This document shows positions 5,151 through 34,371 of a stretch of 34,773 bases of DNA, one piece after another. Made by a program: the position numbers and the translations under genes. How positions within the stretch are numbered: position 1 is the stretch's first letter; each line of letters opens with the position of its first letter. The notes under the pieces were generated by a model. It did no database searches, had not been told where the DNA came from, and saw only the letters and a list, made by a program, of their open reading frames with translations. The stretch comes from Fidelibacterota bacterium. GTDB taxonomy: Bacteria > Fidelibacterota > Marinisomatia > SCGC-AAA003-L08 > D37C17. The stretch lies in assembly GCA_002707645.1 (NCBI GenBank), contig PANN01000002.1, positions 37,863 through 72,635 of the forward strand, written 5' to 3'.

Positions 5151-5200
5151 AGCTATTATTTTATTTTATAATTATATATAAAATATCACTATTATAATAT

Positions 5201-6166
5201 ATGATTACAATTAAAAATTTTACAGCAACTGATAATGAATTTATCGATCTTTCAAGGATTGATAATCTTGTTAATCACGATTCAATAAATCATCCTGATG
5301 ATGATAAAAATGATTGGAAAATTCGGGATAAAAGTATTATTCGAGATAGATTGTTGCTTTATAGTAATGATATACTCATAGGAGTTTTATATTATTCTCA
5401 AGGAAGAGAAAAAAATCATAGAACTTGTTTTTATACATTACATTTGGATCCTGATTATAATAATAAAGGATATAGAAAATTATTATACAATAAAATGATT
5501 AATAACATAAAGATTTTTAATTGCAATAAGCTACATACAAATATATATAATCATATAAATTATAGTGAGCATAAAAAACTGCTGGATAAAGAAGGGTTTA
5601 AACTAGTCCAAACTAATAGAGAGTATTCTTGTGACATAAGAAAAATTGATTTAAAAAAATATTATCCATTAATTAAAAAATTAGAATTGAGGGGTATAAA
5701 ATTATATGATTCTAAATATGAAATGAAAAATTGGTCTGGCCATTATCAAAAATTAGAACAGTTATGCTGGGCTTATGGCAAGGATATTCCCATGCCTGAA
5801 GGTATTGCTAGAGAAAGAGAACCTTTTGAAGAATTTATTAAAAATCAAGAAAACTTCGAAGAGAATTATTATGCTGCTGAAATTATTGCTGTCAAAAATG
5901 ATGAGTATATTGGTTCGACAGATTTAGAATACTATCCTAAAACGGAGCCTCAAAAGGCATGGACAGGTTCACTTGGTGTAATTAAGAAATTTAGAAGAAT
6001 GGGTATCGCAACAGCTTTAAAAATTGTAGCTTTTGAAAAGCTAAAAGAAAAAAAAATTTATGAGGTTAGAACAGATAATGAAATTAATAATCCAATGTAT
6101 AAAATCAATGAATCTCTAGGATTTAAACCCGTTCCATTTAGTCTAGATTATTCAAAAGAAATTTGA
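5201..6166 (+). CDS. Tandem GNAT-family acetyltransferase
   Basis: Protein of 321 residues with two GNAT (acetyl-CoA-dependent N-acetyltransferase) domains. The N-terminal domain (about 1-150) contains LHLDPDYNNKGYRKLLYNKM, a degenerate form of the acetyl-CoA pyrophosphate loop. The C-terminal domain (about 160-321) has the better motif, SLGVIKKFRRMGIATALK near residue 265, and ends with a typical NPMYKINESLGFKPV strand-helix. Such two-domain GNAT proteins often keep one active domain and one structural domain; here the C-terminal one looks active. No signal peptide is present, so it should be cytoplasmic. The acceptor substrate is unknown. It stands alone and is followed by a strong hairpin terminator. 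Confidence 0.85.
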   Translation: MITIKNFTATDNEFIDLSRIDNLVNHDSINHPDDDKNDWKIRDKSIIRDRLLLYSNDILIGVLYYSQGREKNHRTCFYTLHLDPDYNNKGYRKLLYNKMINNIKIFNCNKLHTNIYNHINYSEHKKLLDKEGFKLVQTNREYSCDIRKIDLKKYYPLIKKLELRGIKLYDSKYEMKNWSGHYQKLEQLCWAYGKDIPMPEGIAREREPFEEFIKNQENFEENYYAAEIIAVKNDEYIGSTDLEYYPKTEPQKAWTGSLGVIKKFRRMGIATALKIVAFEKLKEKKIYEVRTDNEINNPMYKINESLGFKPVPFSLDYSKEI

Positions 6167-6174
6167 ATATAAAC

Positions 6175-6205
6175 AAAAAGGGAACTATTATATAGTTCCC
6201 TTTTT
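6175..6205. terminator. Bidirectional Rho-independent terminator
   Basis: A perfect 13-bp stem (aaaaagggaacta paired with tagttcccttttt) encloses a 5-nt loop. The stem has a G/C block in the middle and A/T tracts on both outer sides, so it can work in both directions. It serves the GNAT gene on the plus strand and could also end transcription from the minus-strand gene at 6380-8143. Confidence 0.85.
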
Positions 6206-6261
6206 ATTAATTTAGATGTAGAGTCATCTAAACCTTGATTTAAGTTATTTAGATTACAAAT

Positions 6262-6363
6262 CTAGAAATTAAAAATAACTCCAAGGTTGTAATCATAGCT
6301 TAAATACGTCGTATCCAATTGATTACCTCCTTTCATGTTTGTTAAAAAAAATCTTACTATAAT
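6262..6363 (-). pseudogene. Possible relic of an outer membrane protein C-terminus
   Basis: In the 213-bp stretch between the GNAT gene and the PNGase-like gene, the minus strand has a short open frame of 33 codons, preceded by a TAA stop. It ends in YLSYDYNLGVIFNF followed by TAG. The alternating pattern and the terminal Phe resemble the last strand of an outer membrane beta-barrel, the signal read by the BAM machinery. There is an in-frame ATG at 6336-6334 but no ribosome binding site and no signal peptide. I read it as the remaining 3' end of a decayed porin-like gene; it could also be chance. The rest of 6206-6379 shows nothing else that I can support. Confidence 0.3.
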
Positions 6364-6379
6364 TTAATAAAAAATCTTC

Positions 6380-8143
6380 TTAATAATAAACAATAATATA
6401 TGAAGACATTGCAATTTCTGGGCAATATCCATCTCCTGCACAAGGAGGAGGACTTACACAAGAATTACCGCTTACTCTGCATGCGTTGTAATCTATAACA
6501 TTGTCATCACCTGCTATTATATGTTCGGTTATATCCATTATGTATGGTTTAACATCTCTGCCAGGGCACCATCCTGCTCTTCCGTAGCCCCAAGTTCCAT
6601 ATTGATTTGGAATTACACCTGTGGTTTGAATTGTTTCAGGATCCATACAATGAGTGTTAGATGAAGCATCAGGAAATGATTGATTAAACTCATATACTCC
6701 ACCATTAATGGAAAAAATATGTCTTGAATTACAAAACTCACAACAATTAAAGCATCCAGCACTTCCCCATCCATGGCCTGATATATATGAAACAAACTCG
6801 ACTTTTGTTGCATTTGATGGTACTGAGAAAACTTGAGCAGGTCTATTCTCATTGTAATCTGGATTAAATTGAACAGTATTATTCCATAAAGGATATATTA
6901 CTTGAGCGTATCCATCTTCATTTACACCGTTATATAATCTTAATTTAATTGTTAATAAACTATTTGGCCATCCAGATTCCTGGAATTTTAATATTTTTTG
7001 TTCATTTTCATTTGATCTAAGTATAGATAAAAAAGGACTAATATCAGTTAATGAATGCGGTTGTCGATCAAAAGGAGTTATCCATTTTGCTATTTCATAG
7101 CAATTTGAGCCATCTAAATCACAAAAATATAATCTAGCAATACGATCATAATCATCACATCCAGCATCACTATAATTCATATTAGCATCTGGACATCCTC
7201 TTAATAATTCGACTTCCATTTTATTATACTGTGAAAGTTCTTGTTGATTTGGGACATCAAATACTTGAGATATACTTGCAGCCCAGCCACCAGTATAATG
7301 TTCTCTTTCGAAAATTGTTATTTCATTATAGTTATTATTTGTTTCAGAAAATGTATTGTTTTCATAATCAAAATAAAGAGCTTCATGAGCTAAGTAATGA
7401 ATGTAAGTTCCTGAAAATGTTGCAGGATTACCTAGGTACCCGATTTCTCGTAGTTGTTGAAAACTATCGATTGCTAAAGCAAATTTTCCTGTTAATGCAG
7501 TTGATAACCAATTATTAAGGTTTGATGTTTTTTCATTTATAAAATGCAAATGATTATTCCAATGATTTTGATCTTCTAATGAAAATTCTTCTAATATTTC
7601 ATCATAAATTTCTTTCATCTGAAGCATATCACTTTCATACTGCGTTCTATTTGAAATGAAAAAATAGTGAACATTATTGGGAGATGTTGTTAATAATTGC
7701 TCCCTAGTACTAGATCCCCATAAAGCGCTTGAGGTACTAACATTTGCATCAAAATGGATAAAGATATAAGACTCATTACCTGTCCAATTTTGTTCTAAAT
7801 TCCATTCAGGATTTTGTGGATATAATATTTTGGAAACGACATTAACAATATCTAAAACATCAATAACATTATCATTGTTAAGATCTGCTTGATCTAGTTG
7901 TTCTTCATTCAAATTTGTATTGCCTAAAACTTGCCCTATAAGTAAAATGACATCTTGAATATTTATAGTTTCATCTAGGTTGACATCCCCTTGAAGTGAA
8001 ATATTTAAATCAGGAACACTAAATGATTCAGCTATGTCAAAATAATTCATACCATATGGGCCTTCTGAAAATTCATCAGATAAAAGAGTACTTATATTTA
8101 AAGCTAAGATAAAAAGAAATAATTTTGATTTTTTAGTAAACAT
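6380..8143 (-). CDS. Secreted PNGase F-like protein with dockerin-like repeats
   Basis: Secreted protein of 587 residues. Residues 1-22 are a signal peptide. Residues about 50-110 hold two dockerin type I-like calcium loops (GDVNLDETINIQDVILLIG and ADLNNDNVIDVLDIVNVVS). The C-terminal third matches the peptide-N-glycosidase F family, whose members cut intact N-glycans from asparagine: ISGHGWGSAGCFNCCEFCNS near residue 458, then PNQYGTWGYGRAGWCPG and DVKPYIMDIT. In the Flavobacterium enzyme a Cys-x-Glu-x-Cys stretch carries an active-site Glu and a disulfide; here C-C-E-F-C keeps that Glu. The middle (about 115-330) looks like an extra domain of PNGase F-related proteins. Likely substrates are eukaryotic glycoproteins outside the cell. 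The dockerin sits at the N-terminal end, which is less usual. It is a single gene, divergent from the DMT transporter over 90 bp. Confidence 0.82.
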   Translation of the reverse strand: MFTKKSKLFLFILALNISTLLSDEFSEGPYGMNYFDIAESFSVPDLNISLQGDVNLDETINIQDVILLIGQVLGNTNLNEEQLDQADLNNDNVIDVLDIVNVVSKILYPQNPEWNLEQNWTGNESYIFIHFDANVSTSSALWGSSTREQLLTTSPNNVHYFFISNRTQYESDMLQMKEIYDEILEEFSLEDQNHWNNHLHFINEKTSNLNNWLSTALTGKFALAIDSFQQLREIGYLGNPATFSGTYIHYLAHEALYFDYENNTFSETNNNYNEITIFEREHYTGGWAASISQVFDVPNQQELSQYNKMEVELLRGCPDANMNYSDAGCDDYDRIARLYFCDLDGSNCYEIAKWITPFDRQPHSLTDISPFLSILRSNENEQKILKFQESGWPNSLLTIKLRLYNGVNEDGYAQVIYPLWNNTVQFNPDYNENRPAQVFSVPSNATKVEFVSYISGHGWGSAGCFNCCEFCNSRHIFSINGGVYEFNQSFPDASSNTHCMDPETIQTTGVIPNQYGTWGYGRAGWCPGRDVKPYIMDITEHIIAGDDNVIDYNACRVSGNSCVSPPPCAGDGYCPEIAMSSYIIVYY

Positions 8144-8233
8144 ATTTTTTAACCTTTTAATTATTTAATAATATAATAAATCCTTAAATATTATGCCATT
8201 TTTAATATAACATGTTTTAATTTTCGCAACATC

Positions 8234-9094
8234 ATGAATTCAAAAATTACTTTACTTCTTATTCTTGCTCTACTATCTGTAAGTACTTCTCCTATAATTG
8301 GAAGAGCATTGGTCGGTGTTAACGCTGTCTCAATTTCATTTTGGAGGATGTTTATTGCTGCAATAATACTTTGGCTTTTCAGTCTTATAAAACCGCAAGG
8401 TAAAATGAAAGTAAGTATAAATATAAATAGAACAATATGTGCTGGGATACTGCTTGGAATTCATTTTGCATTATTTTTTGAAGCTATTAAAATTACAAAA
8501 ATAGCTAATGCTACATTCTTAGGAACTTTAGCACCATTTTTTACTCTCATCATAGAACTATATATTTTAAAGAGATATTATAGTAGTAAAATTTTATTTG
8601 GATTATTTTTAACATTGATTGGCTCAATAATTATTTTAGGTTATCAATTTAATATAGAGTCCCAATATACAATTGGAAATTTATATGCAGTTTTATGTTC
8701 TATTTGTATTGCTATTGCACTTATGATTGGAGAACAAGTTAGACAAAAAGAAGATACAATTGTGTATACAAGATTATTATATTTATCAGCATCATTTACA
8801 CTGTTTATAATTTCTATTTTGGTTAACGAAACATTGTTTAGCTTTAATAGGAATGAATTTCTTGGTCTTTTTTTTCTAGGACTTGTTCCTACAATATTAG
8901 GACACAATTCAATTTACTACTCTCTAAAATATGTGCCTCCTACAATTGTTGCAGCTTTTCCATTAGGTGAACCAATTATTGCTACATTCTTTGCATTTTT
9001 TATTTTTTCGGAGTATATTTCATTAAATATATTCATTGGGGGATGTATAACTGGAATAGGTTTAGTCTTAATCTCAATTTATAAAAAACAGTAA
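8234..9094 (+). CDS. DMT family transporter (EamA domains)
   Basis: Inner membrane protein of 286 residues with about ten hydrophobic helices and two EamA repeats, the standard form of the drug/metabolite transporter superfamily. Typical signatures are PIIGRALVGVNAVSISFWRM in the first repeat, ALFFEAIKITKIANATFLGT at the end of the first set of helices, and PTILGHNSIYYSLKYVPPTI with AFPLGEPIIATFFAFFIF in the second repeat. Substrates in this family range from amino acids to nucleobases and cannot be predicted here. The start ATG at 8234 lacks a Shine-Dalgarno. The esterase gene follows after 13 bp and is probably co-transcribed. Confidence 0.92.
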   Translation: MNSKITLLLILALLSVSTSPIIGRALVGVNAVSISFWRMFIAAIILWLFSLIKPQGKMKVSININRTICAGILLGIHFALFFEAIKITKIANATFLGTLAPFFTLIIELYILKRYYSSKILFGLFLTLIGSIIILGYQFNIESQYTIGNLYAVLCSICIAIALMIGEQVRQKEDTIVYTRLLYLSASFTLFIISILVNETLFSFNRNEFLGLFFLGLVPTILGHNSIYYSLKYVPPTIVAAFPLGEPIIATFFAFFIFSEYISLNIFIGGCITGIGLVLISIYKKQ

Positions 9095-9107
9095 AGTTAG
9101 TTTAACT

Positions 9108-10223
9108 ATGAATAGAATATTACCATTTATATTTATATCAATTTGCTTTTTTCAGGAAGAATGCCAAGATGAGCGTTATATTTCAGAAATATTTGATGTA
9201 GATATTATTTACGGAGTTCCATACGGTGAAAATATAAATCAAACTATTTTAGGATCAGAATATTTTGAAAGTTTATACATGGATATATATTTACCTGAAA
9301 ATGATTATTTCGATGAAAGACCCTTAATATTTTTTCTATTTGGAGGCTCTTTTGTAGGTGGCTCTAAATCCTCATCTGATATCGTTGCATTATGTACTAA
9401 TTATGCAAAAATGGGTTATGTTTCTGTTGCTATAGATTATAGACTATCTCAGCATTTATTACTTTTTAATGCTAATGAAGAAAATGCGTATAGAGCTGTA
9501 GTGAAAGCTATCCATGATTTAAAAGCAGCAATTAGATATTTTAAAATGAATGATGAATTATTTGATGATTATAAAATAGATGTAAACAGAGTTTATGCTG
9601 GTGGATATTCAGCTGGTGCAGTTACAGTTATTAATGCTGCTTATTTAAATGAATATGAAGAAGTTCCAGAATTTTTATATGATGATTATGATAGTATTGG
9701 AGGTTTAGATGGTTTGTCCGGTAATCCAGGGTATGACTCAAATTTTGATGGTATAGTTAATTTATCAGGAGCAGTTGGCAATAGAAATTGGATTGTAGAA
9801 AATGATATTCCAATTGTAAGTATGCATGGTGATTTAGATGATGTTGTTCCATATGATGATGATTTAATTACTTTATTTGGGTTGAATATGGCTGTAGATG
9901 GAAGTTTTATAATTCATGAAAGAATGATCGAACTTGGAAATTATAGTGCTTTACATACTTATCAAAATCAAGGACATTCACCTTATTCTAATATGAATTT
10001 TGAAACAGAGTATTCAAGTTCTTTTTTATATGAACTAGTATGTAATAATGATTTTTTAATAGGAGATTTAAATGGAGATTCTATAATTAATATAAGTGAT
10101 GTTGTTTTATTGATAAATATAATTTTATCTGCTAATTATTTAGAATCGGGAGATGTTAATAATGATGGGAACATAAATGTTCAAGATGTTATCATACTTA
10201 TTCAAGCGATATTAAATACCTAA
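9108..10223 (+). CDS. Secreted alpha/beta-hydrolase (esterase) with C-terminal dockerin
   Basis: Secreted hydrolase of 371 residues. A short signal peptide (1-16) leads into an alpha/beta-hydrolase resembling carboxylesterases and feruloyl or acetyl-xylan esterase-like enzymes. FFLFGGSFVGGS provides the oxyanion region, GGYSAGA the nucleophile (Ser168), HGDLDDVVP the acid (probably Asp244), and QGHSPY the His (His290). The C-terminal 50 residues form a two-loop dockerin type I-like module (GDLNGDSIINISDVVLLINI and GDVNNDGNINVQDVIILIQA). The substrate is probably an ester on an extracellular polymer, but this is inference. It ends with a 4-bp convergent overlap with the VOC gene. No cohesin partner is visible in the window. 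Confidence 0.88.
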   Translation: MNRILPFIFISICFFQEECQDERYISEIFDVDIIYGVPYGENINQTILGSEYFESLYMDIYLPENDYFDERPLIFFLFGGSFVGGSKSSSDIVALCTNYAKMGYVSVAIDYRLSQHLLLFNANEENAYRAVVKAIHDLKAAIRYFKMNDELFDDYKIDVNRVYAGGYSAGAVTVINAAYLNEYEEVPEFLYDDYDSIGGLDGLSGNPGYDSNFDGIVNLSGAVGNRNWIVENDIPIVSMHGDLDDVVPYDDDLITLFGLNMAVDGSFIIHERMIELGNYSALHTYQNQGHSPYSNMNFETEYSSSFLYELVCNNDFLIGDLNGDSIINISDVVLLINIILSANYLESGDVNNDGNINVQDVIILIQAILNT

Positions 10224-10645
10224 CTATCAAAAATCATCCTATCATTTTTAAATGATTTAAATTCTAAAATATTTCCACTTGGATCTTTAATAAAAAAAGT
10301 AGATTGTTCACCTTTTTCACCAATAAATCTTATATTTGGTTTGATTAAAAAATCAATTTTTTCATTTATCAATTTATCTGATAATTTATTCCATTTTCTT
10401 TTTGTTAAAATTATTCCGAAATGTCTGCAAGGAATATTTTCACCGTCAACTATATTACTATTTTGAAAGTTTATTTCATTATCTATTAAATGAGCTGATA
10501 TTTGGTGACCATAAAAATTAAAATCAACCCAACGATCATTTATTCTTCCTATTTTACACCCAAGAGTATTGGTGTACCATTTGATTGTTTTTTTTATATT
10601 TGTAATGGGGAAAGCTAAATGGAAAGGTCTTAGTTTTTCAGTCAT
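10220..10645 (-). CDS. VOC (glyoxalase/bleomycin-resistance) family protein
   Basis: Protein of 141 residues with the two beta-alpha-beta-beta-beta modules of the vicinal oxygen chelate superfamily. RPFHLAFPITNIKKTIKWY opens the first module with a possible metal ligand His9. CRHFGIIL opens the second with another His, and DPSGNILEFKSF carries the usual Glu near the C-terminus. These are the metal-ligand positions of many VOC dioxygenases and lyases, so the protein could be an active metalloenzyme. The pattern resembles small glyoxalase-like dioxygenase-fold proteins of unknown substrate. It is the last gene of a minus-strand group running from 12795 to 10220, only 5 bp after the Cys-rich lipoprotein gene. 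Confidence 0.87.
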   Translation of the reverse strand: MTEKLRPFHLAFPITNIKKTIKWYTNTLGCKIGRINDRWVDFNFYGHQISAHLIDNEINFQNSNIVDGENIPCRHFGIILTKRKWNKLSDKLINEKIDFLIKPNIRFIGEKGEQSTFFIKDPSGNILEFKSFKNDRMIFDS

Positions 10646-10650
10646 TAGAT

Positions 10651-11382
10651 TTAATTATCGACAACATTTATAAAACCATTTTCAGAACTTTCAGTATCTG
10701 ATTCATAATAATATTGATAACCTGATGGATTTTGAAAACCTATAAAATAATATTGTGATTGAGATGTTTGCCCAGTCCCAGCTGGTATAGTAACTTCAAA
10801 TTCATCCCAGTTTTGATTGTATGATAAGGGAGTATCCCAAATACATCCTTCATTTATTTGCTCACATAATTCTAAAGATTCATATGAAGAGCAATCATTA
10901 TTATTAAAAATTGAGTCTTGATTTTTAATACAACCAGGTTGTGAACTATTAATAGTTTTAATAGTGATTTCATGATTTGAATTATTTAGCCAATATATTG
11001 GAACATTAATATTCGTTTGATGCAGACTTGGATCAAAACCATTTTCATCAGAGTAGATAATAAATATATTTGAATATACGCAGCAATTGTCACATTCAAT
11101 TGTAGCTTCATCATTATAATTAATTGCAAGATTACTCATACATCCAGTACACGATGAATTATTTCCAAAACAAACATCACAACTATCTTTTGATAGGTTC
11201 CAATCACATTCATCTAAATCACAATCACAAGATTCATTGCATTGGGTACATTGGCCGCATTCATCTTCAAATAAATCATAATCAGCGCAATCAATAGGCT
11301 CAGTTAAATTATCCTGGCATGAAAAAAATAAACACAGAAATACAAATAGAGTATATTTATTTAAATTTAATAGATGTTTCAT
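10651..11382 (-). CDS. Cys-rich lipoprotein with possible degenerate cupredoxin-like domain
   Basis: Protein of 243 residues, not recognised as a named family. The N-terminus has a lipoprotein signal with lipobox FFSC (Cys22). Residues about 31-105 are Cys-rich, with CGQC, CDVCFGNNSSCTGC and AINYNDEATIECDNCCVY, related to the D-C-x-G/C-x-N-S-T-C repeats in the SprA N-terminus of this window. The C-terminal part (about 106-243) resembles a cupredoxin-like beta-sandwich (FDPSLHQTNINVPIYWLNNS, then HEITIKT). The region where blue copper proteins carry Cys, His and Met reads YYYESDTESSENGF, so the copper site would be lost. A CIWD-bearing Cys module interrupts this domain (about 10835-10945). The start overlaps the upstream hydrolase by 26 bp. 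Confidence 0.75.
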   Translation of the reverse strand: MKHLLNLNKYTLFVFLCLFFSCQDNLTEPIDCADYDLFEDECGQCTQCNESCDCDLDECDWNLSKDSCDVCFGNNSSCTGCMSNLAINYNDEATIECDNCCVYSNIFIIYSDENGFDPSLHQTNINVPIYWLNNSNHEITIKTINSSQPGCIKNQDSIFNNNDCSSYESLELCEQINEGCIWDTPLSYNQNWDEFEVTIPAGTGQTSQSQYYFIGFQNPSGYQYYYESDTESSENGFINVVDN

Positions 11383-22657: not shown

Positions 22658-23278
22658 ATGATGAAAGTGGTTATTGCAACACATAATAAAGATAAACTTA
22701 AAGAATTAAAAAAAGGTCTTATTAAATTAGGTATTGAATTGCTTGATTTATCATCATTTCCCGAAATTGGCGAGATAGTTGAAGATGGTGAAACTCTTAA
22801 AGAAAATGCTTTTATTAAAGCACGAGAAGTATTTAAAAAAACTGGTTTGCCTTCATTGGCAGATGATACTGGCCTAGAAGTGGATGCTCTTGGAGGAAAA
22901 CCTGGTGTTTATACTGCAAGATTTGCAGGTGAAAATTGTTCATATTTAGATAATGTAAATAAAATGCTTGATGTAATGAAAAATATTAAAGCTAATGATA
23001 GATCAGCTGTATTTAAAACTGTAATGACATTTGTCGACGATAAAACGGAACTTTTTTCAATTGGTGAAGTAAAAGGTATGATAGCCTCGGAAAAGAAAGG
23101 TCTTGGAGGTTTCGGTTATGATTCCATATTTTATGTGGTGAACGAAGGAAAAACATTTGCTGAAATGTCTATAAAAAAGAAAAATATTATATCTCATAGA
23201 GGTAAAGCGATTAAAAATTTAATCCCTAAAATTGAGTCTTACATTAAGGCTGATACAAATACAAAGGAGTCTGCCTAG
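22658..23278 (+). CDS. rdgB: XTP/dITP diphosphatase (RdgB/HAM1)
   Basis: Protein of 206 residues matching the RdgB/HAM1 family, which removes non-canonical purine nucleoside triphosphates. VVIATHNKDKLKELKKGL at the N-terminus binds substrate, SLADDTGLEVDALGG holds the general base Asp, GVYTARFAGE follows, and LGGFGYDSIFYV near residue 148 is the nucleotide-recognition motif. The start is ATG 22658 or 22661. It lies 49 bp after the start of the divergent tRNA gene. The giant sprA frame begins 15 bp after its stop and in the same reading frame, so only the TAG at 23276-23278 separates the two. Confidence 0.94.
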   Translation: MMKVVIATHNKDKLKELKKGLIKLGIELLDLSSFPEIGEIVEDGETLKENAFIKAREVFKKTGLPSLADDTGLEVDALGGKPGVYTARFAGENCSYLDNVNKMLDVMKNIKANDRSAVFKTVMTFVDDKTELFSIGEVKGMIASEKKGLGGFGYDSIFYVVNEGKTFAEMSIKKKNIISHRGKAIKNLIPKIESYIKADTNTKESA

Positions 23279-23293
23279 CGTCCCACTGCTAAG

Positions 23294-26200
23294 GTGAATT
23301 ATATATATTCAATAAACTATTTAAAGGTAATTTTTTATCTTTGCACTGCCTCTTTTTTTAATTTTTTAGAAGCAGAACAGGAGATTAACGCTTCATATTA
23401 TGATAATTGTGGTATATATGATAATAATCCACAGAATGATTGCGTTCAAGATTGTTCTGGAATTTGGGGAGGTGATTCTATATTTGATGAATGTGGAGTT
23501 TGTGGTGGTAATGGAAAGAGAGATAACGAAAATTGTGATGGAGAATGCATTGTTCAAATAGATTGTTTTGGGATTTGTGGAGGATTAGCACGTTTAGATG
23601 ATTGTGGAAAGTGCGATGAAGATTTTTTAAATGACTGCAAAAAATCTTATTTTGATAATTGTGGAAATTTTGATGATAATCCCGATAATGATTGTGTCAA
23701 AGATTGTTCAGGGATTTGGGGTGGATTAAATATATTTGATGATTGTGGAATTTGTGGAGGAAATAATTCAACATGTGGAGATTGTTCCGGTGTAGCATAC
23801 GGGAATGCCTACTATGATAATTGTAATGTATGTGACAATATACCTGAAAACGACTGCAGTAAAGACTGCAAAGGTATTTGGGGTGGTGAAAATAAGGTAG
23901 ATAATTGTGGAGTTTGTGAAGGAAATAATTCAACATGTGCAGATTGCATGGGAAACATAAATGGTAGCGCTTATTATGATAGTTGTAATATTTGTGATGA
24001 TAATCCTGAAAATGACTGTGTAAAAGATTGTAATGGTGAATGGGGAGGTAAATCACTCATCGATGAATGTGGAAAGTGTGAAGGAAATGGTATCCCTGAT
24101 GGGTATTGTGATTGCGATTTAAATACTTTTGATTGTATGGGAATATGTGGTGGCGAACACTTAGAAGAGGACTGTTTTTTAGAGGATAATCCTTCTTTAT
24201 CATCGAATATTGATATTGATTTTGTAGATGATATATATTTTTCAAGAACAATTAACTACTATGTATTTATAAAAAATGTATTTGATCCATTCTATAAAGA
24301 AATTAAAGGATTAACATTTGCATCAAAATATAGGCCTAGTTCTTATCATGGATTAAATTTTACAAAAGAACTCAGAAAATTAAGTAAAAAAACTGAGCTA
24401 GGCTCTAATGGAACAACAATTATATCTTCTTTAAAGTACAATGAAAATGATATTCTTCAGCCTTCTATATCTACCGTTGATTATTACAAATCTAGAATCA
24501 TTAATAATAATCACTATGAAAAAATGCAACAATTAGCATTTAACAAAATTAGTCCAAATATAAAAAATTCTAGAAATTCAAAAAAACTTACATTGGTCAG
24601 TCAAGATATAGGAGAGACAAATGTTGCTATTAATTTAAGCGGTCAAATAGAAATTAGGGGCGAATTAGAATTTACGGATACTCAAAGTAGTTCATTGAGT
24701 AATCAAAATAATGAATCTTGGAATTTAGACATTGATCAAAAACAACGTTTTGATTTAGAGGGTCGAGTTGGAGATAGATTAACTATTAGTGCCGATCAAA
24801 ACTCAGAATCAGATTTTGATTTTGAAAATTCACTTTTGTTAGAGTACAAAGGTTTTGATAATGAAATTATAAATAATATTCAAGCTGGTAACATTGGTAT
24901 TAGTCTTAGCGAAGGAACTTTATTTAGTGTAGGTATGGGTAAAAGAGCAGGTGTATTTGGTGTGAAGATGAGTAGTCAGCTTGGACCAATTGAATTGAAT
25001 ACAATTATTGGTAGAGAAAAAGTTAAAAAAGAATCTTTTTCTTTAGGAAATCAATCTGAAGGTTTAGATAGATATGATTACCAATTTATAAAAGATAAAT
25101 ATTTTTTTATTGATAAAATTTTTAAAAATAATTTTTATCCTTTAAATGAAGACTATATTAATCAAATTGGTTCAAATGAATATGTTATTAAAGATTTTAA
25201 ATTATATAAACGAGCTCAAACAAATGAAATTGAAACAGATATTTATGAAGGAATTGCTTATATTGATCCCTTAAATAAAGATATTGGAACTCCTGAAAAT
25301 AATATATGGATTGAACTTGAAGATCAGTATTCTGGAAATGATTACTATATAAATAAGTATTATGGATATGTTAGATTAAATTCAATATCAACAAGTGATT
25401 TAATTGCGGTGCACTATACAATAGGGGATTTAAATAATGATGGAACTATTCTTGAATCTTCTAATCCTATTCAAACAGGAACAGACTATCTTATTCAAGA
25501 TCGATGCTTATTATCAGGTCAAAATGAATGTGATGAGAATACTATTAACGGGTGTTCTGAGATAGAGGCTTCAACCTTAGAAGTTTGTAATGAGGAAAAT
25601 AATCTAAATTGTTGTAATTATATTGAATATAATGACGTATTTGGCTTTTCTGCTGATCCTTTAATTTTAAAAATTATAAAAACTGAAGGACAACAAGAAC
25701 CTCCAAGTCCTGATAATCCAAATGGAAATCCAACATGGGATTTAATGATGAAAAATGTATATGATATAGGATTGTCAAATTTTAGTCAAGGAGATGAACC
25801 ACCAGAAGTTGAGGTTGTTCATATTGGTGGTCAATTAGGTACCGAGACAGCTAGTTCAAATGGAAATACATTCTTAAGAATTTTTGGTATAGATAATAAG
25901 GATTCTCAAGGTTTTTTCATATCTAATGGAGACGGAAAAGTAGATAGTTATTTTATTAATAGCTGGGGAGATCTATTCTTACCATTTGATATGCCTTTTG
26001 CATACGACCCGGAAGCATACTTAGGTAATCCACATTTAGATTTAGCGAATATATTTGATGGTGATTTAGAAAATATAAACATTGAAAACTTAACAACTAT
26101 AAGAAAAAATGGTGATGCCGGACCAGAATTTACTCTTTACAGGTATGAAAATGGACCTGCAATGTATTTTAGTAGTAATGAAACAACAAAATCATCAGAA

Positions 26201-29200
26201 AAAGAATTTGTTATAAAAGTAAAGAATGTAAATCAAAATACAACAATAAATCTTGGCTTCATGATAGTTGATGGAAGTGAAACATTGACCGATGGTTCAA
26301 CTCAGCTAATTAAAGGAGTAGACTATTCTGTTGATTACTTTACGGGAACATTAACTTTAATTTCGGATAGAGCTAAAAATAATTCTCAAACTTTGAGGAT
26401 TTCTTATGATAGAAATGAGATTGTATCATTTGATCAAAAATTAATTTTTGGAAATTCATTTAAGTATGAGATAAATAATAAAAGCAATTTATTTGGAGGA
26501 TTATACTTTTATAAGCAATCAATAACTGATAATAAGGTTGAGATTGGTTATGAGCCTATGGAAAATATGATTTGGCATCTTGGTGGAAAATATTCAAAAG
26601 AATTATTAAATTTAAATAATTCAATAAATAATAGAGGATTAGTTAATTTAGAAAAACCTTCTGAATTTAGCTTTTCAAGTGAGGTAGCACAAATATTCCC
26701 TAATCCAAATCCTATTGGGATTGCTTATATAGATGATTTTGAATCATCCAAGAGATATTCAACTATGCCAATTTTAAATTCTGCTTGGCAAGAATCAGCT
26801 CCACCCTTTAAAATAAAAAACTTTGATTGTCTAAGTGCATTAACTGAATCTGATTGCATAGAAATAGATGAATGCGAAATTAATTATAATGAATATAATG
26901 ATTTTTTAAGTTGTGATATTGTTTTAGAAAAGTACGATATTTATAAAAGAGAAAATTTATTTTGGTACAATCCTTATAATGATATTCCAACAGAACTTAT
27001 ATGGCCTGATAAAGAAGTTGAAGATGCTTCTAAGGAACAAACACTTTGGTTGGAAATACCGGAAGATAAAATTGGAGGTAATAGTGATAACCCTGATGAT
27101 AATAGATGGTGGAATGGTATAACAGCTTCATTATATGCCTCTGACCAAAATCAATCAAACAATAAATATTTAGATATTTGGCTTAATTATGAAGGATTAG
27201 TAGGTTTTGAAAATCACTATAATGGTCTTCCAGAAAATCCAGTTTTAGTTAATAGAAATAATCTTAAGCTTAATATTGATATTGGTATGATTAGTGAAGA
27301 TACAAATGATAATGGTGTTTTAGACACAGAAGATTTGGTTCCAGAATCACTTATGATCATGGGTGATGGTTTATTGGATGCGGGAGAAGACAAGGGCATG
27401 GATGCCTGTATAAATGAATATGAAAATGGTTGGGGAGGATGTCTTTGTTCTGAATTTAATCATGGTACTAATAATGATAATACCTATAATAGCTGTATTG
27501 ATACAGAGCAACTTACTTTTTCACAAATCAAATCTGAAATTTTGAGTGGTAATTCAAGTTTTAATAATGTTATTAATATAAATGTAAACTCGAATGATCC
27601 AAATAATGATGACTTTAGTTATACTTCTGCAAGTTACGATTTTAGTAACTATAATGGAACAGAGAACAATGGTGCAATTATAGAAAATAAATATCCAGAT
27701 TCTGAAGATTTAAATGGCGATCAGTTTATTGATGATATTAATTCATACTATTCTTATACAATAGATTTAGATATGGATAATGATGATATTATTCAAAGTG
27801 AAATATTATCAACAAATTGGAAACTTTTTAGGATTCCATTAAATGATTTTATTGCAATTAATGAAACCTCTGGCTATAATGCTGATTGGACAAATGTAAA
27901 AAATATTAGGCTATGGATTGAAGGTCAATATGCAGAAAATGATACTTATGGATTACTTGGAATTGCTTCAATTGAGATTGTAGGAAATGAGTGGGAAGAA
28001 CTAGGTATAGTTGATAATGAAGATATTGGCCAAGTTGGATATTTAGAATCAGAATTTACTCCTAATGAAAATGTAAGTATCCAATTAATAAATAATCAAG
28101 AAAACTCTGATATATATACACCTCCAGACGGGGTATCAGGAAGTAATCAGAATTTTGGAACAGGGGGACTTGGTAGCTTAATAGTAGATAAAGAACAATC
28201 ACTGGTAATTGATTTTTCTAATGGTTCAGATAATAATGGTGGAATTAATTTAGATAGTACGGCATTTATTAAGAAAAATGTTAGTTATTCATCGTTGGAC
28301 GCTGAGAAACAAAATAGTTTCTTTGTATATAAAAATTTAGAAATGTATTTTAATGGAAATGAATCAAGTGTTGGTCAAGATTGGTATGAGGAGTGCAATG
28401 GATCAGATAGTGAAGAATGTACAAATGTTGAGTTATGTTTTAGATTTGGTAAAGATGAAAATTATTATGAAATAAGAAAACCATTTAAATCTATTGAAAA
28501 TGAAGAAGTATTAGATCCAAATGGGTGGCAAAATTTAAAAATAAATTTAGATGAATTGACAAGATATAAATTAAATAGACAAAATTTAGAATCTTATATC
28601 GATGATGGAATTGATAATTGTGACGACTTATATGAAACTGGAATAATTAATTCTTTAACAAACCTTCCTGGTTGTCTTAATGAGGAAATAATTGAGTTAG
28701 GAATTACAACATCTAAAATTTGTGATGAAATATCTGGACTATCAGTATTTAATGAAGAACAGTTAAACTATTGCAATGAAAATGACTGTTTGAATTTTAT
28801 AAGTAGTGAAATATGTATTGATGAGAACTATGACGAATTAGGCGTTTATAATCCATATATTCTTGATCCTAACGGTGATAATTATTCTGTTCCTGGTTTA
28901 GAGTGTTGTGATTCAAATATTGATAGTCCAGATTTCTGTATTCCAGATACAAATAATGTTGATAATCCAAATTATTATTGTCCCGATTTATCTGATAATT
29001 TTTATTTAGCAACAGAAGGTAATAATCAGTATGATTGTATTGATGAAAACAATGAATCTTGTAGTGAAGATGATATCACTATTTATGGTGAATATGTGAT
29101 TGATGATTGGGATCAAAACAACTTATATACAATACCAGCATCATACATTCCAGAAGATCAGGTTTGGTCTTGGAAGGATTACTGTCAAACTAATGATAAT

Positions 29201-31594
29201 TTGAATTCTGAAGAATGTGATGATTGGACAACGGTTGATATAAGTACTGTTTGTGAAGATTGCAGTGAATTGAGAGTCAAGGGAGAACCAGCTATTAATA
29301 AAATGGAATATATTATGGTTGGTATTAAAAATAATGCTCCTGGAACAATTTTTGGAAGTGTTTGGATTAATGAACTGAGAATGACAGGTGTGAAAAGACA
29401 AAAAGGAACAGCATTTACAACAAACTTTAAATTCAACTTAAGTGATATTTTTAATATTGATTTAGATTTTAAAAGTGAAGAAGCTGATTTCCATCGCTTA
29501 GAGCAACGATTAGGCTCAGGTGATCATTCCATTAATTATTCTATAAATTTTGGTTTTTCTCCTCATGAACTATTTAAAGAAAATTATTTTCAAATGCCGC
29601 TTAATATTAAGTATTCTAAAGGCCTATATTCTCCTTTATATAAGCCTGGTTCAGATATTATTCTAGGTGGTTTTAGTGAAACTCCTAATGAATTAAAAAA
29701 TATTAATAATTCAATTACTTTAAGTACATCATTAAATACAATGTTAACAGATTATGCTCCTGGGAATTTATTTTTCAAGCACTTTTTAGATAATTCAAAA
29801 TTAACTTATTCCTATAAATGGAATCAATCATCTAATACAACAATTTTAAATAAAGAATCTGTATTGCAAAATATTAATTATGATTATTCTTTGACATTTA
29901 GCAGAGATAATAAATGGTACCCATTTAAAGGTATATTCAATGATAATACAGAAAACACTGATAATAAAAAATACTTTGCTAACTTTTTAAAAGATTTAAA
30001 TTTTTATTATACTCCTCAAAATATAAATTTTAATTCATCTTTTGTAGATTCAGATAATTATACTATTCAAAGAGATTTGTATGGAGGTATTGTTACTGAT
30101 GAAAAAAACATTGATTTAAATAGAAGCTTTTCTTCAAATATTAATATATTTGATAACCTAGCATTTCAATACTCTGCTAATATGAAAAATAATTTAAATG
30201 ATTACTTTTCAAATAATACAGCTTTAAAAATTTCAGATTTTTTTGATTTATCTTTTTCGCCAGGTATTAAAAAAAGCTATAATCAACAATTATCATTTAC
30301 ATATACTCCTGAATATCTTAAGTGGCTTGGACCCCGTTTCAATTATGTCCCAACCTATAATTGGGTTAGAGATGCTGTAAGCGGGGAATCTTCAACAGCT
30401 GACATATCAAGTGATAATAGATTCTCAGTTTCATTTACACTTTCATTTACTCAGTTTATTGAGCAATTTTACGAATCAGATAAAAAAACATCAGGTAGTT
30501 CATCTAGATCAACTAGTAGAAGGCGTTCTTCTACTTCTTCAAATAGCTCGAATTCAAACCAAATATATATTATCAAACAACCTCATTTTAAAACTATTTT
30601 AAAATTTTTACATGAAATAGGACAAAGATTTTCCAGTATAAATATTAATTATTCATACAATACTACGAACAAATACAATAATATCTCAACAGATATCAAC
30701 CCAAATTATAAATTTAAGTTAGGTATTATTGATAGACCAATTGAAGGTAGTCTTTTTGCAGGTTCAGATGGAATAATTATATCATCATCCAACACTTTTA
30801 ATCAAGAATTAAAGTTTAGTACTTCAATTCAATTAAGTCCAAATTTAACATTATCTAATATTGAATACAGAGTATCTTTGTCTGCTAATAACCAAAGTGA
30901 TAGTGGCTATAATGAAACACAATCTGAATCATATTTCCCTTTAGGAGCATCAGGTAAAAATGGATTTCCAATATTTGGTTGGTCTGTTAATTTAAGAGGT
31001 CTAGAAAAGTATGATTTATTAAGTAATTGGTTTAAAAGTTTTAGTATGAGTCATACCTTTAATGGAGAAAAAAATAAAATCAGTCAAGATTTTATTGTTC
31101 AAAAACTTGATTATAAGAGAAATTTTGCTCCTTTATTGAGATTTGATATGACGACTAAAAAAATACCTTTAGATATAGATTTAACACTTAATAATACTTT
31201 AAATATTACAAATGAAGGTGGTCAAATTGAACGAACAACTAATAATCAAGTTAGTTTAACTTTTGGATATAGAAAAAAAACAGGTTTTAATATGCCTGTA
31301 TTTTTTCTAAGAGATTTTCAAGTTGAAAATGAAGTTAATTTAAGTTTAAAGATAGGTTATGATAATAGTAATACCGAGTTCTCATATTTTGAGACTAATA
31401 ATCTAAATCAATTTGAAGTTATTGCATATAGTAATTCATATAATTTACAGCCTAAAGTTACATATAATTTTAGTAAATTTGTTGAGGGGGATTTGTGGTT
31501 TAATTATATAGTTTCAGATAATCATACCTCTGGTAGAAAAAAAGAAACAGATATAGGATTTCAAGTTAGAATATATTTTGAATCCTTTGATTAA
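23294..31594 (+). CDS. sprA: SprA/Sov-type T9SS outer membrane translocon with Cys-rich N-terminal domain
   Basis: A 2766-residue protein of the SprA/Sov family, the very large beta-barrel channel of the type IX secretion system. The GTG start comes just before a signal peptide (about 1-27, ending FNFLEA). Residues 35-294 are Cys-rich repeats, which are unusual for SprA. The family core begins near residue 430: GQIEIRGELEF, FDLEGRVGDRLTISADQ, then SDFDFENSLLLEYKGFDNEI and IQAGNIGISL. IAYIDDFESSKRYS (near residue 1145) and LNIDIGMISEDTNDNGVLDT are also SprA hallmarks. The C-terminal barrel has LSFTYTPEYLKWLGPRFNY and ends FQVRIYFESFD. Cys-rich inserts occur near 25500-25630, 26825-26930, 27400-27500 and 28390-29270, and a Ser/Arg-rich linker near 30480-30560. 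It is followed at once by QC, cargo and PorV-like genes. Confidence 0.9.
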   Translation: MNYIYSINYLKVIFYLCTASFFNFLEAEQEINASYYDNCGIYDNNPQNDCVQDCSGIWGGDSIFDECGVCGGNGKRDNENCDGECIVQIDCFGICGGLARLDDCGKCDEDFLNDCKKSYFDNCGNFDDNPDNDCVKDCSGIWGGLNIFDDCGICGGNNSTCGDCSGVAYGNAYYDNCNVCDNIPENDCSKDCKGIWGGENKVDNCGVCEGNNSTCADCMGNINGSAYYDSCNICDDNPENDCVKDCNGEWGGKSLIDECGKCEGNGIPDGYCDCDLNTFDCMGICGGEHLEEDCFLEDNPSLSSNIDIDFVDDIYFSRTINYYVFIKNVFDPFYKEIKGLTFASKYRPSSYHGLNFTKELRKLSKKTELGSNGTTIISSLKYNENDILQPSISTVDYYKSRIINNNHYEKMQQLAFNKISPNIKNSRNSKKLTLVSQDIGETNVAINLSGQIEIRGELEFTDTQSSSLSNQNNESWNLDIDQKQRFDLEGRVGDRLTISADQNSESDFDFENSLLLEYKGFDNEIINNIQAGNIGISLSEGTLFSVGMGKRAGVFGVKMSSQLGPIELNTIIGREKVKKESFSLGNQSEGLDRYDYQFIKDKYFFIDKIFKNNFYPLNEDYINQIGSNEYVIKDFKLYKRAQTNEIETDIYEGIAYIDPLNKDIGTPENNIWIELEDQYSGNDYYINKYYGYVRLNSISTSDLIAVHYTIGDLNNDGTILESSNPIQTGTDYLIQDRCLLSGQNECDENTINGCSEIEASTLEVCNEENNLNCCNYIEYNDVFGFSADPLILKIIKTEGQQEPPSPDNPNGNPTWDLMMKNVYDIGLSNFSQGDEPPEVEVVHIGGQLGTETASSNGNTFLRIFGIDNKDSQGFFISNGDGKVDSYFINSWGDLFLPFDMPFAYDPEAYLGNPHLDLANIFDGDLENINIENLTTIRKNGDAGPEFTLYRYENGPAMYFSSNETTKSSEKEFVIKVKNVNQNTTINLGFMIVDGSETLTDGSTQLIKGVDYSVDYFTGTLTLISDRAKNNSQTLRISYDRNEIVSFDQKLIFGNSFKYEINNKSNLFGGLYFYKQSITDNKVEIGYEPMENMIWHLGGKYSKELLNLNNSINNRGLVNLEKPSEFSFSSEVAQIFPNPNPIGIAYIDDFESSKRYSTMPILNSAWQESAPPFKIKNFDCLSALTESDCIEIDECEINYNEYNDFLSCDIVLEKYDIYKRENLFWYNPYNDIPTELIWPDKEVEDASKEQTLWLEIPEDKIGGNSDNPDDNRWWNGITASLYASDQNQSNNKYLDIWLNYEGLVGFENHYNGLPENPVLVNRNNLKLNIDIGMISEDTNDNGVLDTEDLVPESLMIMGDGLLDAGEDKGMDACINEYENGWGGCLCSEFNHGTNNDNTYNSCIDTEQLTFSQIKSEILSGNSSFNNVININVNSNDPNNDDFSYTSASYDFSNYNGTENNGAIIENKYPDSEDLNGDQFIDDINSYYSYTIDLDMDNDDIIQSEILSTNWKLFRIPLNDFIAINETSGYNADWTNVKNIRLWIEGQYAENDTYGLLGIASIEIVGNEWEELGIVDNEDIGQVGYLESEFTPNENVSIQLINNQENSDIYTPPDGVSGSNQNFGTGGLGSLIVDKEQSLVIDFSNGSDNNGGINLDSTAFIKKNVSYSSLDAEKQNSFFVYKNLEMYFNGNESSVGQDWYEECNGSDSEECTNVELCFRFGKDENYYEIRKPFKSIENEEVLDPNGWQNLKINLDELTRYKLNRQNLESYIDDGIDNCDDLYETGIINSLTNLPGCLNEEIIELGITTSKICDEISGLSVFNEEQLNYCNENDCLNFISSEICIDENYDELGVYNPYILDPNGDNYSVPGLECCDSNIDSPDFCIPDTNNVDNPNYYCPDLSDNFYLATEGNNQYDCIDENNESCSEDDITIYGEYVIDDWDQNNLYTIPASYIPEDQVWSWKDYCQTNDNLNSEECDDWTTVDISTVCEDCSELRVKGEPAINKMEYIMVGIKNNAPGTIFGSVWINELRMTGVKRQKGTAFTTNFKFNLSDIFNIDLDFKSEEADFHRLEQRLGSGDHSINYSINFGFSPHELFKENYFQMPLNIKYSKGLYSPLYKPGSDIILGGFSETPNELKNINNSITLSTSLNTMLTDYAPGNLFFKHFLDNSKLTYSYKWNQSSNTTILNKESVLQNINYDYSLTFSRDNKWYPFKGIFNDNTENTDNKKYFANFLKDLNFYYTPQNINFNSSFVDSDNYTIQRDLYGGIVTDEKNIDLNRSFSSNINIFDNLAFQYSANMKNNLNDYFSNNTALKISDFFDLSFSPGIKKSYNQQLSFTYTPEYLKWLGPRFNYVPTYNWVRDAVSGESSTADISSDNRFSVSFTLSFTQFIEQFYESDKKTSGSSSRSTSRRRSSTSSNSSNSNQIYIIKQPHFKTILKFLHEIGQRFSSININYSYNTTNKYNNISTDINPNYKFKLGIIDRPIEGSLFAGSDGIIISSSNTFNQELKFSTSIQLSPNLTLSNIEYRVSLSANNQSDSGYNETQSESYFPLGASGKNGFPIFGWSVNLRGLEKYDLLSNWFKSFSMSHTFNGEKNKISQDFIVQKLDYKRNFAPLLRFDMTTKKIPLDIDLTLNNTLNITNEGGQIERTTNNQVSLTFGYRKKTGFNMPVFFLRDFQVENEVNLSLKIGYDNSNTEFSYFETNNLNQFEVIAYSNSYNLQPKVTYNFSKFVEGDLWFNYIVSDNHTSGRKKETDIGFQVRIYFESFD
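23396..24175 (+). repeat. Cys-rich repeat domain in the SprA N-terminus
   Basis: Codons 35-294 of sprA encode degenerate tandem repeats. One full unit reads roughly YYDNC-x3-D-x-xPENDC-x-KDC-x-G-x-WGG, then D-x-CG-x-C-x-G-NNSTC-x-DC-x-G. The DC-x-G-x-WGG element appears four times and the CG-x-C-x-G-N/G element about six times. Conservation is at the protein level and only partly at the DNA level. Similar DC-x-G-x-WGG repeats occur in surface proteins of marine bacteria; their fold and ligand are unknown, but spaced Cys, Asp and Asn suggest disulfides or metal/Ca binding. Confidence 0.88.
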
Positions 31595-31598
31595 GTTT

Positions 31599-32498
31599 AT
31601 GATAAGACTCTTTTACATATTATTTTTTGCTATTATTCAGGCTCAACAGATTCCATTATTTGATGGTGATATTGCATTTAGCTATCTTAAGAAACAATGT
31701 GACTTTGGGGAAAGATATCCTGGAAGTCAAAATCATATTGATCTTAAAAATTATTTAGTTAGTTTTTTATCGGATAAATCAGATGAATTGATTGTCTATG
31801 ATCATGAAATAAATCATCCATATAATAAAAATGAAAAAATCATTTTATACAATATCTTAGCAAGATACAATTTAGATTCACAAAATAGAATTTTGTTAAT
31901 GGCTCATTGGGACACAAGAGAAATAGCAGATAAAGATTCAAATAAAATGAATCAAGCAAAACCGATAATAGGTGCCAATGATGGTGCAAGTGGGATATCA
32001 ATATTAATGCATTTGTCAGAAATATTTTCTAGCTATCCTTTCAATAATATTGGAGTAGATTTACTATTTGTTGATGGTGAAGACATGGGCAGGCACGGTG
32101 ATTTAGAGAATTTTTCAATAGGAACTAAACTATTTTCAAAAACGATGTCAAAACCAATTCCTAAATTAGCTATTTGCCTTGATATGGTTGCTGATAAAGA
32201 TCCAGAATTTAAAATTGAATATTTTTCATATATACAAGCTGAAAAAGATGTTTTAGAATTATGGGATTTAGCAAATTCATTAGGTTATAGCGAATTTGTA
32301 TATGAGCTTTCACAGCCAATTTATGATGATCATAGAGCTTTGTTTGTTGAAACAGGTATACCATCTCTCGATATTATTGATTTTGATTATCCTTATTGGC
32401 ATACTCTAGAAGATACTGTTGATAAATGTTCTCCATACACATTGGGTATTGTGGGTACTCTTGTTTGTGAATATTTATATAGGAAAGAGCATGATTAG
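31599..32498 (+). CDS. Glutaminyl-peptide cyclotransferase (M28-type glutaminyl cyclase)
   Basis: Zn-dependent glutaminyl cyclase of the M28 fold, 299 residues from ATG 31599. I prefer this start because the upstream TTG at 31578 overlaps sprA, while ATG 31599 begins the signal peptide (MIRLFYILFFAIIQA) 4 bp after the sprA stop. MAHWDTRE, GANDGASG (Asp128), LLFVDGED (Glu161) and DYPYWHTLEDTVD (His268) supply the metal ligands and the active site. The enzyme turns N-terminal Gln of exported proteins into pyroglutamate. Its own predicted cleavage site (QA, then QQIPLF) leaves Gln at the N-terminus, matching the Q-rule reported in Bacteroidetes. Its place next to sprA suggests it modifies periplasmic or T9SS client proteins. 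Confidence 0.9.
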   Translation: MIRLFYILFFAIIQAQQIPLFDGDIAFSYLKKQCDFGERYPGSQNHIDLKNYLVSFLSDKSDELIVYDHEINHPYNKNEKIILYNILARYNLDSQNRILLMAHWDTREIADKDSNKMNQAKPIIGANDGASGISILMHLSEIFSSYPFNNIGVDLLFVDGEDMGRHGDLENFSIGTKLFSKTMSKPIPKLAICLDMVADKDPEFKIEYFSYIQAEKDVLELWDLANSLGYSEFVYELSQPIYDDHRALFVETGIPSLDIIDFDYPYWHTLEDTVDKCSPYTLGIVGTLVCEYLYRKEHD

Positions 32499-34371
32499 TA
32501 CAAAATGGTATATATTATTTATTTTTATATCTCTATCTTTTAGTAAATATTTAACAGATTACAAAGTTGATAACGTAGAATCAAATTTTGAATATCGAAA
32601 TAGAGAATTAACTAATGGTTTATCAAGTCAATCAATAGTTGATTTAAGGATATTAAACAATCAATCTATTATTATTGGAACATCTGGTGGATTAGGATTA
32701 CTTGATAGCAATATGAATTTTTATAGCTTTAATGATGATAGATTGCCTGATGGTGGAAATCCTGCTTTGGAGGTGTATGAAAATGAGAATTTAATTATTG
32801 TTTCAGGTGTTGAAACTGTTAATTTTTTAAATGAAGATGTTTCAAGTGGAACTGGAATTTCTTGGTCAACTGATAACGGAACCTCATGGAAATATATGCC
32901 CCAGCCTCAAGATATACTTCCTGTATGTGAAGAATTGACATGTGATAACCCTCTAAATTCTCCCGAAGAATGCGATTGTTCTCCTGCTGCCTCAGGCTGT
33001 TCATGGGATGTTCCTTCACAAACATGCAGTCAAGTGGGTAATAATATTGTAGTTAGCTGGGGAGGTCAAAATCTATCAAGCTTGGCGATTCAAACCTCAG
33101 CAAAAAATGTTACGTATGACGTATCTGCTGATACTATTAATAAATATATATATACAGCAAATTGGGCTGGCATGTTAAGGAGATTTAAATATACTGATGA
33201 CAATCCAATTTGGGAAATTATCCCTTTACCAATGGATAACCAATTAACTGCAGATTGTGGCTCTTTCCCTTCAAGTTACGTATATAATCCAGTAGACCCA
33301 CAAATTAGTGGTAATTTGAATTATGGAGGAAATCATAATCATAAAGTATTTTCAGTTTATACAGAATTTTATGATGGCCAAATGTATATTTGGGCTGGGA
33401 CTGCAGATGGTGTAAATAAAGGAATAATAGATGATAATGGATGTATTGATTGGGTTCATTATACTTCCTTAGATGGTCTAGGGGGTAATTGGATTATAGA
33501 TATTATTCCTCAATATATAAATAATAGTGTAAATCCAAGAATATGGCTTGTTTCATGGGATAGAGAAGAGACGGCACCACATCCTAATTCTTTAACTTAT
33601 ACTGATGATAATGGTATTTCATGGATTACAGTAGATCAATTTAGTGAAGAGTTTATTGATTTAAATAATAATAATATTTACGACCAGGAAGATAGTTTTG
33701 ATGATTTTAATAATAATAATAATTATGATGGAGCTACTCCTTACAGTCTATATTTTTCTAGTGACGTTTTATATGCTTCAACAAATAGAGGTCTATTCTA
33801 TGCATCTATTGATAATGTTTTAAATTGGGAAAGACTAGAATTTCCAGATCAAATTTTGGATATTTTAGATTATAATCAAAATTCAGAAGCAGGAATTTTT
33901 ACACAGACTAAAGTATATACATCTTTGAATAGAAATCAGACATTTTTTATTGGAACACCTCAAGGTTTAATATGGGTCGAAGCAGAAAATAATATAAATA
34001 ATCCATATTTATGGAGTGAAGAAACATGGGATTCTTTCATAGCCTCAAATCAAAATATAGTGGATAAAAATAAATTACATATTTGGCCCAATCCATTTTT
34101 TATTGAAAATATTTACACTAACGTAGATTTTCAATTTAAAACAAATAATAACAGCGGTAAAATGAAAATTTATGACTTTTCGATGGATTTGGTGGACTCC
34201 TTTGATTGTGATAAAATAAATGATTATGGAAATTTAGAGTGCACGTGGGATGGAAGGAACAAGAATAATATTAAAGTAGCAAATGGAGTTTATTTTTGTA
34301 AGCTTAAAACAGGCAATACTGAAGTATGGGAAAAACTTATGGTTATTAATGCATCGAAGGGTCATTATTAA
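32491..34371 (+). CDS. T9SS-type exported protein with FlgD-like C-terminal sorting domain
   Basis: Exported protein of 626 residues from ATG 32491 (an upstream ATG at 32419 would only extend it into the cyclase gene and would displace the signal peptide, ILFIFISLSFSKYL). The bulk looks like a beta-propeller with blades such as VDLRILNNQSIIIGTSGGLG and YIWAGTADGVNKGI, resembling two-component-regulator-type propellers. A Cys module lies near 32920-33040 (seven Cys, CSWD). An Asp/Asn-rich EF-hand-like stretch is near 33655-33730. The C-terminal 95 residues match FlgD-like Ig/T9SS type A sorting domains: HIWPNPFF, MKIYDFSMDLV, CTWDGRNKNNIKVANGVYFC. It overlaps the cyclase gene by 8 bp and is a likely SprA client. 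Confidence 0.83.
   Translation: MISTKWYILFIFISLSFSKYLTDYKVDNVESNFEYRNRELTNGLSSQSIVDLRILNNQSIIIGTSGGLGLLDSNMNFYSFNDDRLPDGGNPALEVYENENLIIVSGVETVNFLNEDVSSGTGISWSTDNGTSWKYMPQPQDILPVCEELTCDNPLNSPEECDCSPAASGCSWDVPSQTCSQVGNNIVVSWGGQNLSSLAIQTSAKNVTYDVSADTINKYIYTANWAGMLRRFKYTDDNPIWEIIPLPMDNQLTADCGSFPSSYVYNPVDPQISGNLNYGGNHNHKVFSVYTEFYDGQMYIWAGTADGVNKGIIDDNGCIDWVHYTSLDGLGGNWIIDIIPQYINNSVNPRIWLVSWDREETAPHPNSLTYTDDNGISWITVDQFSEEFIDLNNNNIYDQEDSFDDFNNNNNYDGATPYSLYFSSDVLYASTNRGLFYASIDNVLNWERLEFPDQILDILDYNQNSEAGIFTQTKVYTSLNRNQTFFIGTPQGLIWVEAENNINNPYLWSEETWDSFIASNQNIVDKNKLHIWPNPFFIENIYTNVDFQFKTNNNSGKMKIYDFSMDLVDSFDCDKINDYGNLECTWDGRNKNNIKVANGVYFCKLKTGNTEVWEKLMVINASKGHY

Follow-up and report, generated by a model that had tools for sequence, protein, structure and literature searches.

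A cysteine-rich repeat module between signal peptide and SprA core in a lineage of Fidelibacterota

The window, by which we mean the whole stretch of 34,773 nucleotides analysed here (Fidelibacterota bacterium, GenBank assembly GCA_002707645.1, contig PANN01000002.1), carries a single uninterrupted GTG-started ORF of 2766 amino acids (23294-31594, plus strand). The ORF contains, in this order, a predicted signal peptide, a Cys-rich module, an N-terminal segment shared with module-less relatives and the SprA core (Table 1). The initial annotation had placed a Cys-rich repeat region ahead of SprA in one protein, and the translation bears this out: the repeats are in frame with a sequence that matches the SprA/Sov family model (NCBIfam TIGR04189) with 532 bits (cut-off 200) and Pfam SprA_N with 49 bits. 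A hydrophobic segment equivalent to the predicted signal peptide is present in all same-genus relatives. A profile made from twelve family SprA proteins found Flavobacterium johnsoniae SprA (6h3i) with 504 bits, in four stretches starting at chain residue 55, and the window protein aligns with residue 55 onward from about its own residue 372. By this homology the core is assigned a putative barrel and cap architecture.

Table 1. Features of the sprA locus (window coordinates)
Feature	Position	Strand	Basis
Ham1-family NTP pyrophosphatase, upstream neighbour of sprA	22658..23278	+	Pfam PF01725, 205 bits
SprA signal peptide, predicted (residues 1-29, GTG start, ...FLEAEQ)	23294..23380	+	sequence; boundary by eye
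Cys-rich repeat module (residues 35-294, 260 aa, 38 Cys)	23396..24175	+	translation, Cys count
Repeat copy 1, 84-residue variant unit (residues 35-118)	23396..23647	+	autocorrelation and alignment by eye
Repeat copy 2, 54 residues (119-172)	23648..23809	+	autocorrelation
Repeat copy 3, 54 residues, 8 Cys (173-226)	23810..23971	+	autocorrelation
Repeat copy 4 and tail (227-295)	23972..24178	+	autocorrelation
SprA N-terminal segment common to module-less family members (residues 297-430)	24182..24583	+	alignment
SprA core (barrel and cap inserts, by homology)	24584..31594	+	TIGR04189, SprA_N, profile match to 6h3i
M28-family peptidase, downstream neighbour	31578..32498	+	PF04389, 84 bits; synteny
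Probable T9SS cargo/surface protein, FlgD_ig / Por_Secre_tail-like C-terminus	32419..34371	+	FlgD_ig and Por_Secre_tail scores

The probable cargo protein at the downstream end of the locus matched FlgD_ig above the cut-off (29.4 bits) and Por_Secre_tail below it (21.7 bits). Elsewhere in the window (6380-8143, minus strand) there is a gene for a protein with a peptide-N-glycosidase F C-terminal domain and a dockerin type I domain.

The window protein belongs to the same translocon family as F. johnsoniae SprA and Porphyromonas gingivalis Sov (TIGR04189; PDB 6h3i, 8gl6 and others). It differs from them by 260 extra Cys-rich residues between the signal peptide and the N-terminal segment, and by 33 further cysteines in the core. 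The core cysteines are clustered between residues 738 and 1990 (about 25505-29263). In an alignment of twelve sequences C1372 and C1841 are invariant, and C1383, C1987 and C1990 nearly so. The order-level outgroups and class members compared have 0-20 cysteines in the whole protein.

The module holds 38 cysteines, slightly fewer than the 45 or so estimated by eye in the initial annotation, against 3.5 expected from the Cys frequency elsewhere in the protein (Poisson P 2e-26). Asp, Gly, Cys and Asn make up more than half of its residues. Matched against itself, the module aligns best when shifted by 54 residues (32% identity), which is the length of the basic unit; the four copies start at residues 35, 119, 173 and 227. 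Searches of Pfam and NCBIfam found no family that covers the repeat. Structure prediction for the module together with the N-terminal segment (residues 29-480) had a mean pLDDT of 40 and was discarded. For the repeats alone the mean pLDDT was 65, which is modest, and a PDB fold search with this model returned no match below E 2.9; the top row of that insignificant list was ADAMTS13. At the sequence level the repeats have a single likeness elsewhere, local and 25-35 residues long, to the ADAMTS Cys-rich domain (ADAMTS5 9rwm, PF19236) at the motif C-G-V-C-x-G-x-N-S-x-C (phmmer E 0.0036). This likeness is marginal, is confined to one motif and does not support common descent. No ADAMTS_CR_3 or TSP-like domain of Pfam exceeded the cut-off, one of 28 repeat segments matching with E 0.035.

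The same fusion was found in three other assemblies of the genus: L033 and L035, both intact with 2769 amino acids, and L034, which contains unresolved bases (Ns). Between the window and L033 all cysteines of the module are identical (38/38), compared with 149 of 218 other residues (68%), and across the four genomes of the genus every resolved module cysteine is retained. Pairwise dN/dS was 0.12-0.23 for the module and 0.03-0.10 for the SprA core. Sequence change is quicker in the module than in the core (about 0.15, compared with 0.04-0.09), so the module may be dispensable for transport. The gene order Ham1 - SprA - M28 peptidase is kept in nearly all relatives checked, and Ham1 lies upstream in most loci of the class; this conserved neighbourhood identifies the window SprA as an ordinary chromosomal orthologue. 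The source genome is an incomplete MAG (1.2 Mb, 79% complete), which would leave room for a misassembly, a frameshift or a non-coding 5′ extension as the origin of the Cys-rich N-terminus, but the independent same-genus assemblies that share the fusion, the low dN/dS, the full retention of resolved cysteines and the conserved neighbouring genes make this explanation negligible.

About 110 SprA frames were screened, taken from the family, the order and the class and from 80 further loci spanning Bacteroidota, Ignavibacteria, Gemmatimonadota, Zixiibacteriota and others. Ahead of the core, only the genus of the window and G006, a member of the sister genus g4, showed a segment rich in cysteine (30-44 Cys, the lowest count coming from the N-containing L034); the remaining frames had 0-4 cysteines there. 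The module is thus not a routine feature of SprA homologues, in agreement with the earlier expectation that SprA elsewhere lacks such a domain. The array of G006 is longer, with GCxDPxAxNY...DDGSC units mixed in among the same repeats, and two further g4 genomes (G012 and G016) have one unit of the latter type each. SprA proteins of g1 and g4 form one clade (SH-aLRT 100), in which all seven members carry a Cys repeat of some kind after the signal peptide. Of this tree we use the topology alone, a genus-10 sequence (L053) having entered its Cys-rich group by mislabelling. Because g1 and g4 are a single clade, the Cys-bearing N-terminus may date to their common ancestor and have grown later. In summary, the window SprA is a real, lineage-restricted variant of the SprA/T9SS outer-membrane translocon. 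Our search of the literature available to us returned no relevant report of SprA in Marinimicrobia/Fidelibacterota, nor of the repeat motifs tried.

Some SprA frames in the screened set were unusual in other ways. The frame of L039 (G007, 1346-11167, plus strand) encodes 3274 amino acids, about 900 residues more than its relatives, with 25 cysteines and without the repeat module. G012 has a second SprA (L070, G012:C9), which is Cys-free and Bacteroidota-like and probably lies on a contaminant contig. G023 has two copies (L053/L054), one of them near genus g9; these contigs are probably contaminants too.

Of 171 genomes of the class searched with the module, 31 contained the repeat; SprA carried it in no genomes beyond those already identified. 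The window's own genome contains it in about ten other frames, including lipoproteins. One of these proteins, L075, bears the type A sorting domain of T9SS as well (TIGR04183, 36.5 bits). A repeat-bearing protein of a relative, L185, also scores above the TIGR04183 cut-off, so both rank as sorting-domain cargo. The repeat is a common secreted module of the order, T9SS cargo included, as the initial annotation had supposed when it ascribed this repeat type to secreted proteins. Over stretches of 35-230 residues, the D-C-x-G-x-W-G-G / C-G-x-C-x-G repeats of secreted proteins and lipoproteins of the order share about 36-68% identity with the module. Their hosts are exported proteins, whereas the repeat module of the window sits on the translocon.

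Several repeat proteins have features of their own. L075 (53-2470, plus strand) has, besides its Cys repeats and T9SS tail, a right-handed beta-helix and a sub-threshold spondin-like TSP1 match. L074 (own genome, C20:13302-13898) and its orthologue L189 are exported-looking proteins of 637-639 amino acids, conserved in the genus, with the Cys repeats in mid-protein and flanks without Pfam match. Three proteins, L214 (G018:C36), L215 (G009:C17) and L216 (G008:C55), have 2620-3029 amino acids within the fetched stretch and 209-231 cysteines from these repeats. The large repeat frames (2300-4700 amino acids; G008, G009, G018, G005, G001) were considered as possible SprA fusions, but none matches the SprA core HMM.

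Other T9SS components were sought with family models. A PorV-family carrier (NF033709) was present in 24 of 24 genomes and C25 (PorU-like) peptidases (PF01364) in nine of nine. In none of 24 genomes, drawn from the genus, the family and the order, did GldL exceed the cut-off. GldM, GldN and an over-cut-off GldK were absent from eight family and order genomes (G000-G003, G006, G024, G025, G030) and likewise from the genomes of L110, L154, L097 and L095 (two Neomarinimicrobiota, one Gemmatimonadota and one Ignavibacteriales); these absences depend on cut-offs, which divergent motors could escape, and the searches for GldM, GldN and GldK were positive in both Bacteroidota controls. The window's genome thus has no recognisable GldK/L/M/N, unlike the canonical Bacteroidota T9SS. 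The suggestion that the module marks a distinct T9SS variant held in part: the motor proteins are not recognisable in the genus and order, but they are equally missing in relatives with a module-less SprA, so the module does not mark the missing motor.

In F. johnsoniae the N-terminus of SprA lies in the periplasm, takes on structure within a SkpA trimer and touches SprE, and its deletion abolishes Type 9 transport (PMC10994853). In the window protein the module lies upstream of the retained N-terminal segment. By homology it is most likely located in the periplasm, beside the translocon. Skp homologues were found in two genomes of the genus (G001 and G002) and not in the window's own genome, which is 79% complete. 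Cysteines are known on periplasmic parts of T9SS-linked outer-membrane proteins from the GldK-PorG and GldK-SprF disulfide linkages (PMC12635249). That linkage uses two cysteines in a C-tail and requires GldK, as opposed to 38 cysteines in a repeat array. A link of the GldK type was set aside for the module because no GldK was found above the cut-off.

The interpretation that we prefer, with somewhat less than even confidence, is that the orthologous SprA of an uncultured marine genus of Neomarinimicrobiota (SAR406) gained a Cys-rich array which forms an oxidised disulfide domain in the periplasm and acts as an interaction or scaffolding arm at the pore entrance. The array would have been drawn from the secreted repeat family of the order and inserted between the signal peptide and the shared N-terminal segment. 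After Sec export its cysteines would be oxidised, giving a compact or rod-like, disulfide-stabilised domain. This domain would stand on the periplasmic face of the translocon, next to where SkpA and SprE attach in Bacteroidota, and could serve there as a protein-interaction or scaffolding arm.

A less probable, but still serious, explanation is domain accretion, in which a repeat common among extracellular proteins became joined on behind the signal peptide and has since persisted as a spacer, stable and harmless, with little specific function. The repeat is promiscuous, occurring in many unrelated proteins of the order, the array of G006 is built differently, G012 and G016 make do with a single unit, and the SprA of most relatives has no module. 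In F. johnsoniae, moreover, a strain with Twin-Strep-tagged SprA was taken as the wild-type background (PMC10994853). A mere spacer is harder to reconcile with the purifying selection on the module and with the complete retention of its resolved cysteines across four genomes.

Docking of cargo is conceivable because cargo bears the same repeats: the SprA repeats could bind those on T9SS substrates waiting in the periplasm, such as the sorting-domain proteins L075 and L185. We consider this doubtful. F. johnsoniae cargo is recognised via its C-terminal domain, by PorV and SprA (PMC10994853), and relatives with a repeat-free SprA commonly possess the repeat too. The anchoring role suggested alongside docking in the initial annotation is likewise conjectural.

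Exposure of the module outside the cell, as the adhesion module envisaged in the initial annotation, is less probable still. Repeats of this kind are typically found in surface and secreted proteins, and classical autotransporters display N-terminal passengers. Against this, the solved structure of the extended F. johnsoniae translocon places the SprA N-terminus in the periplasm, where SkpA and SprE hold it (PMC10994853), and the window SprA keeps the N-terminal segment that lies between module and barrel. A periplasmic placement makes adhesion unlikely. We regard as very improbable a T9SS-like translocon without a GldKLMN motor in which the disulfide-rich periplasmic arm of SprA would do part of the work, scaffolding or energy coupling, that falls to the SprE/PorKN assembly in Bacteroidota.

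It is through docking on the SprA N-terminus that the periplasmic half of the T9SS translocon is tied to the pore. An additional domain conserved at this point, in a phylum in which searches did not detect the known motor, is a natural variant with which to ask what periplasmic components SprA depends on. It also bears on how the translocon is assembled and powered outside Bacteroidota.
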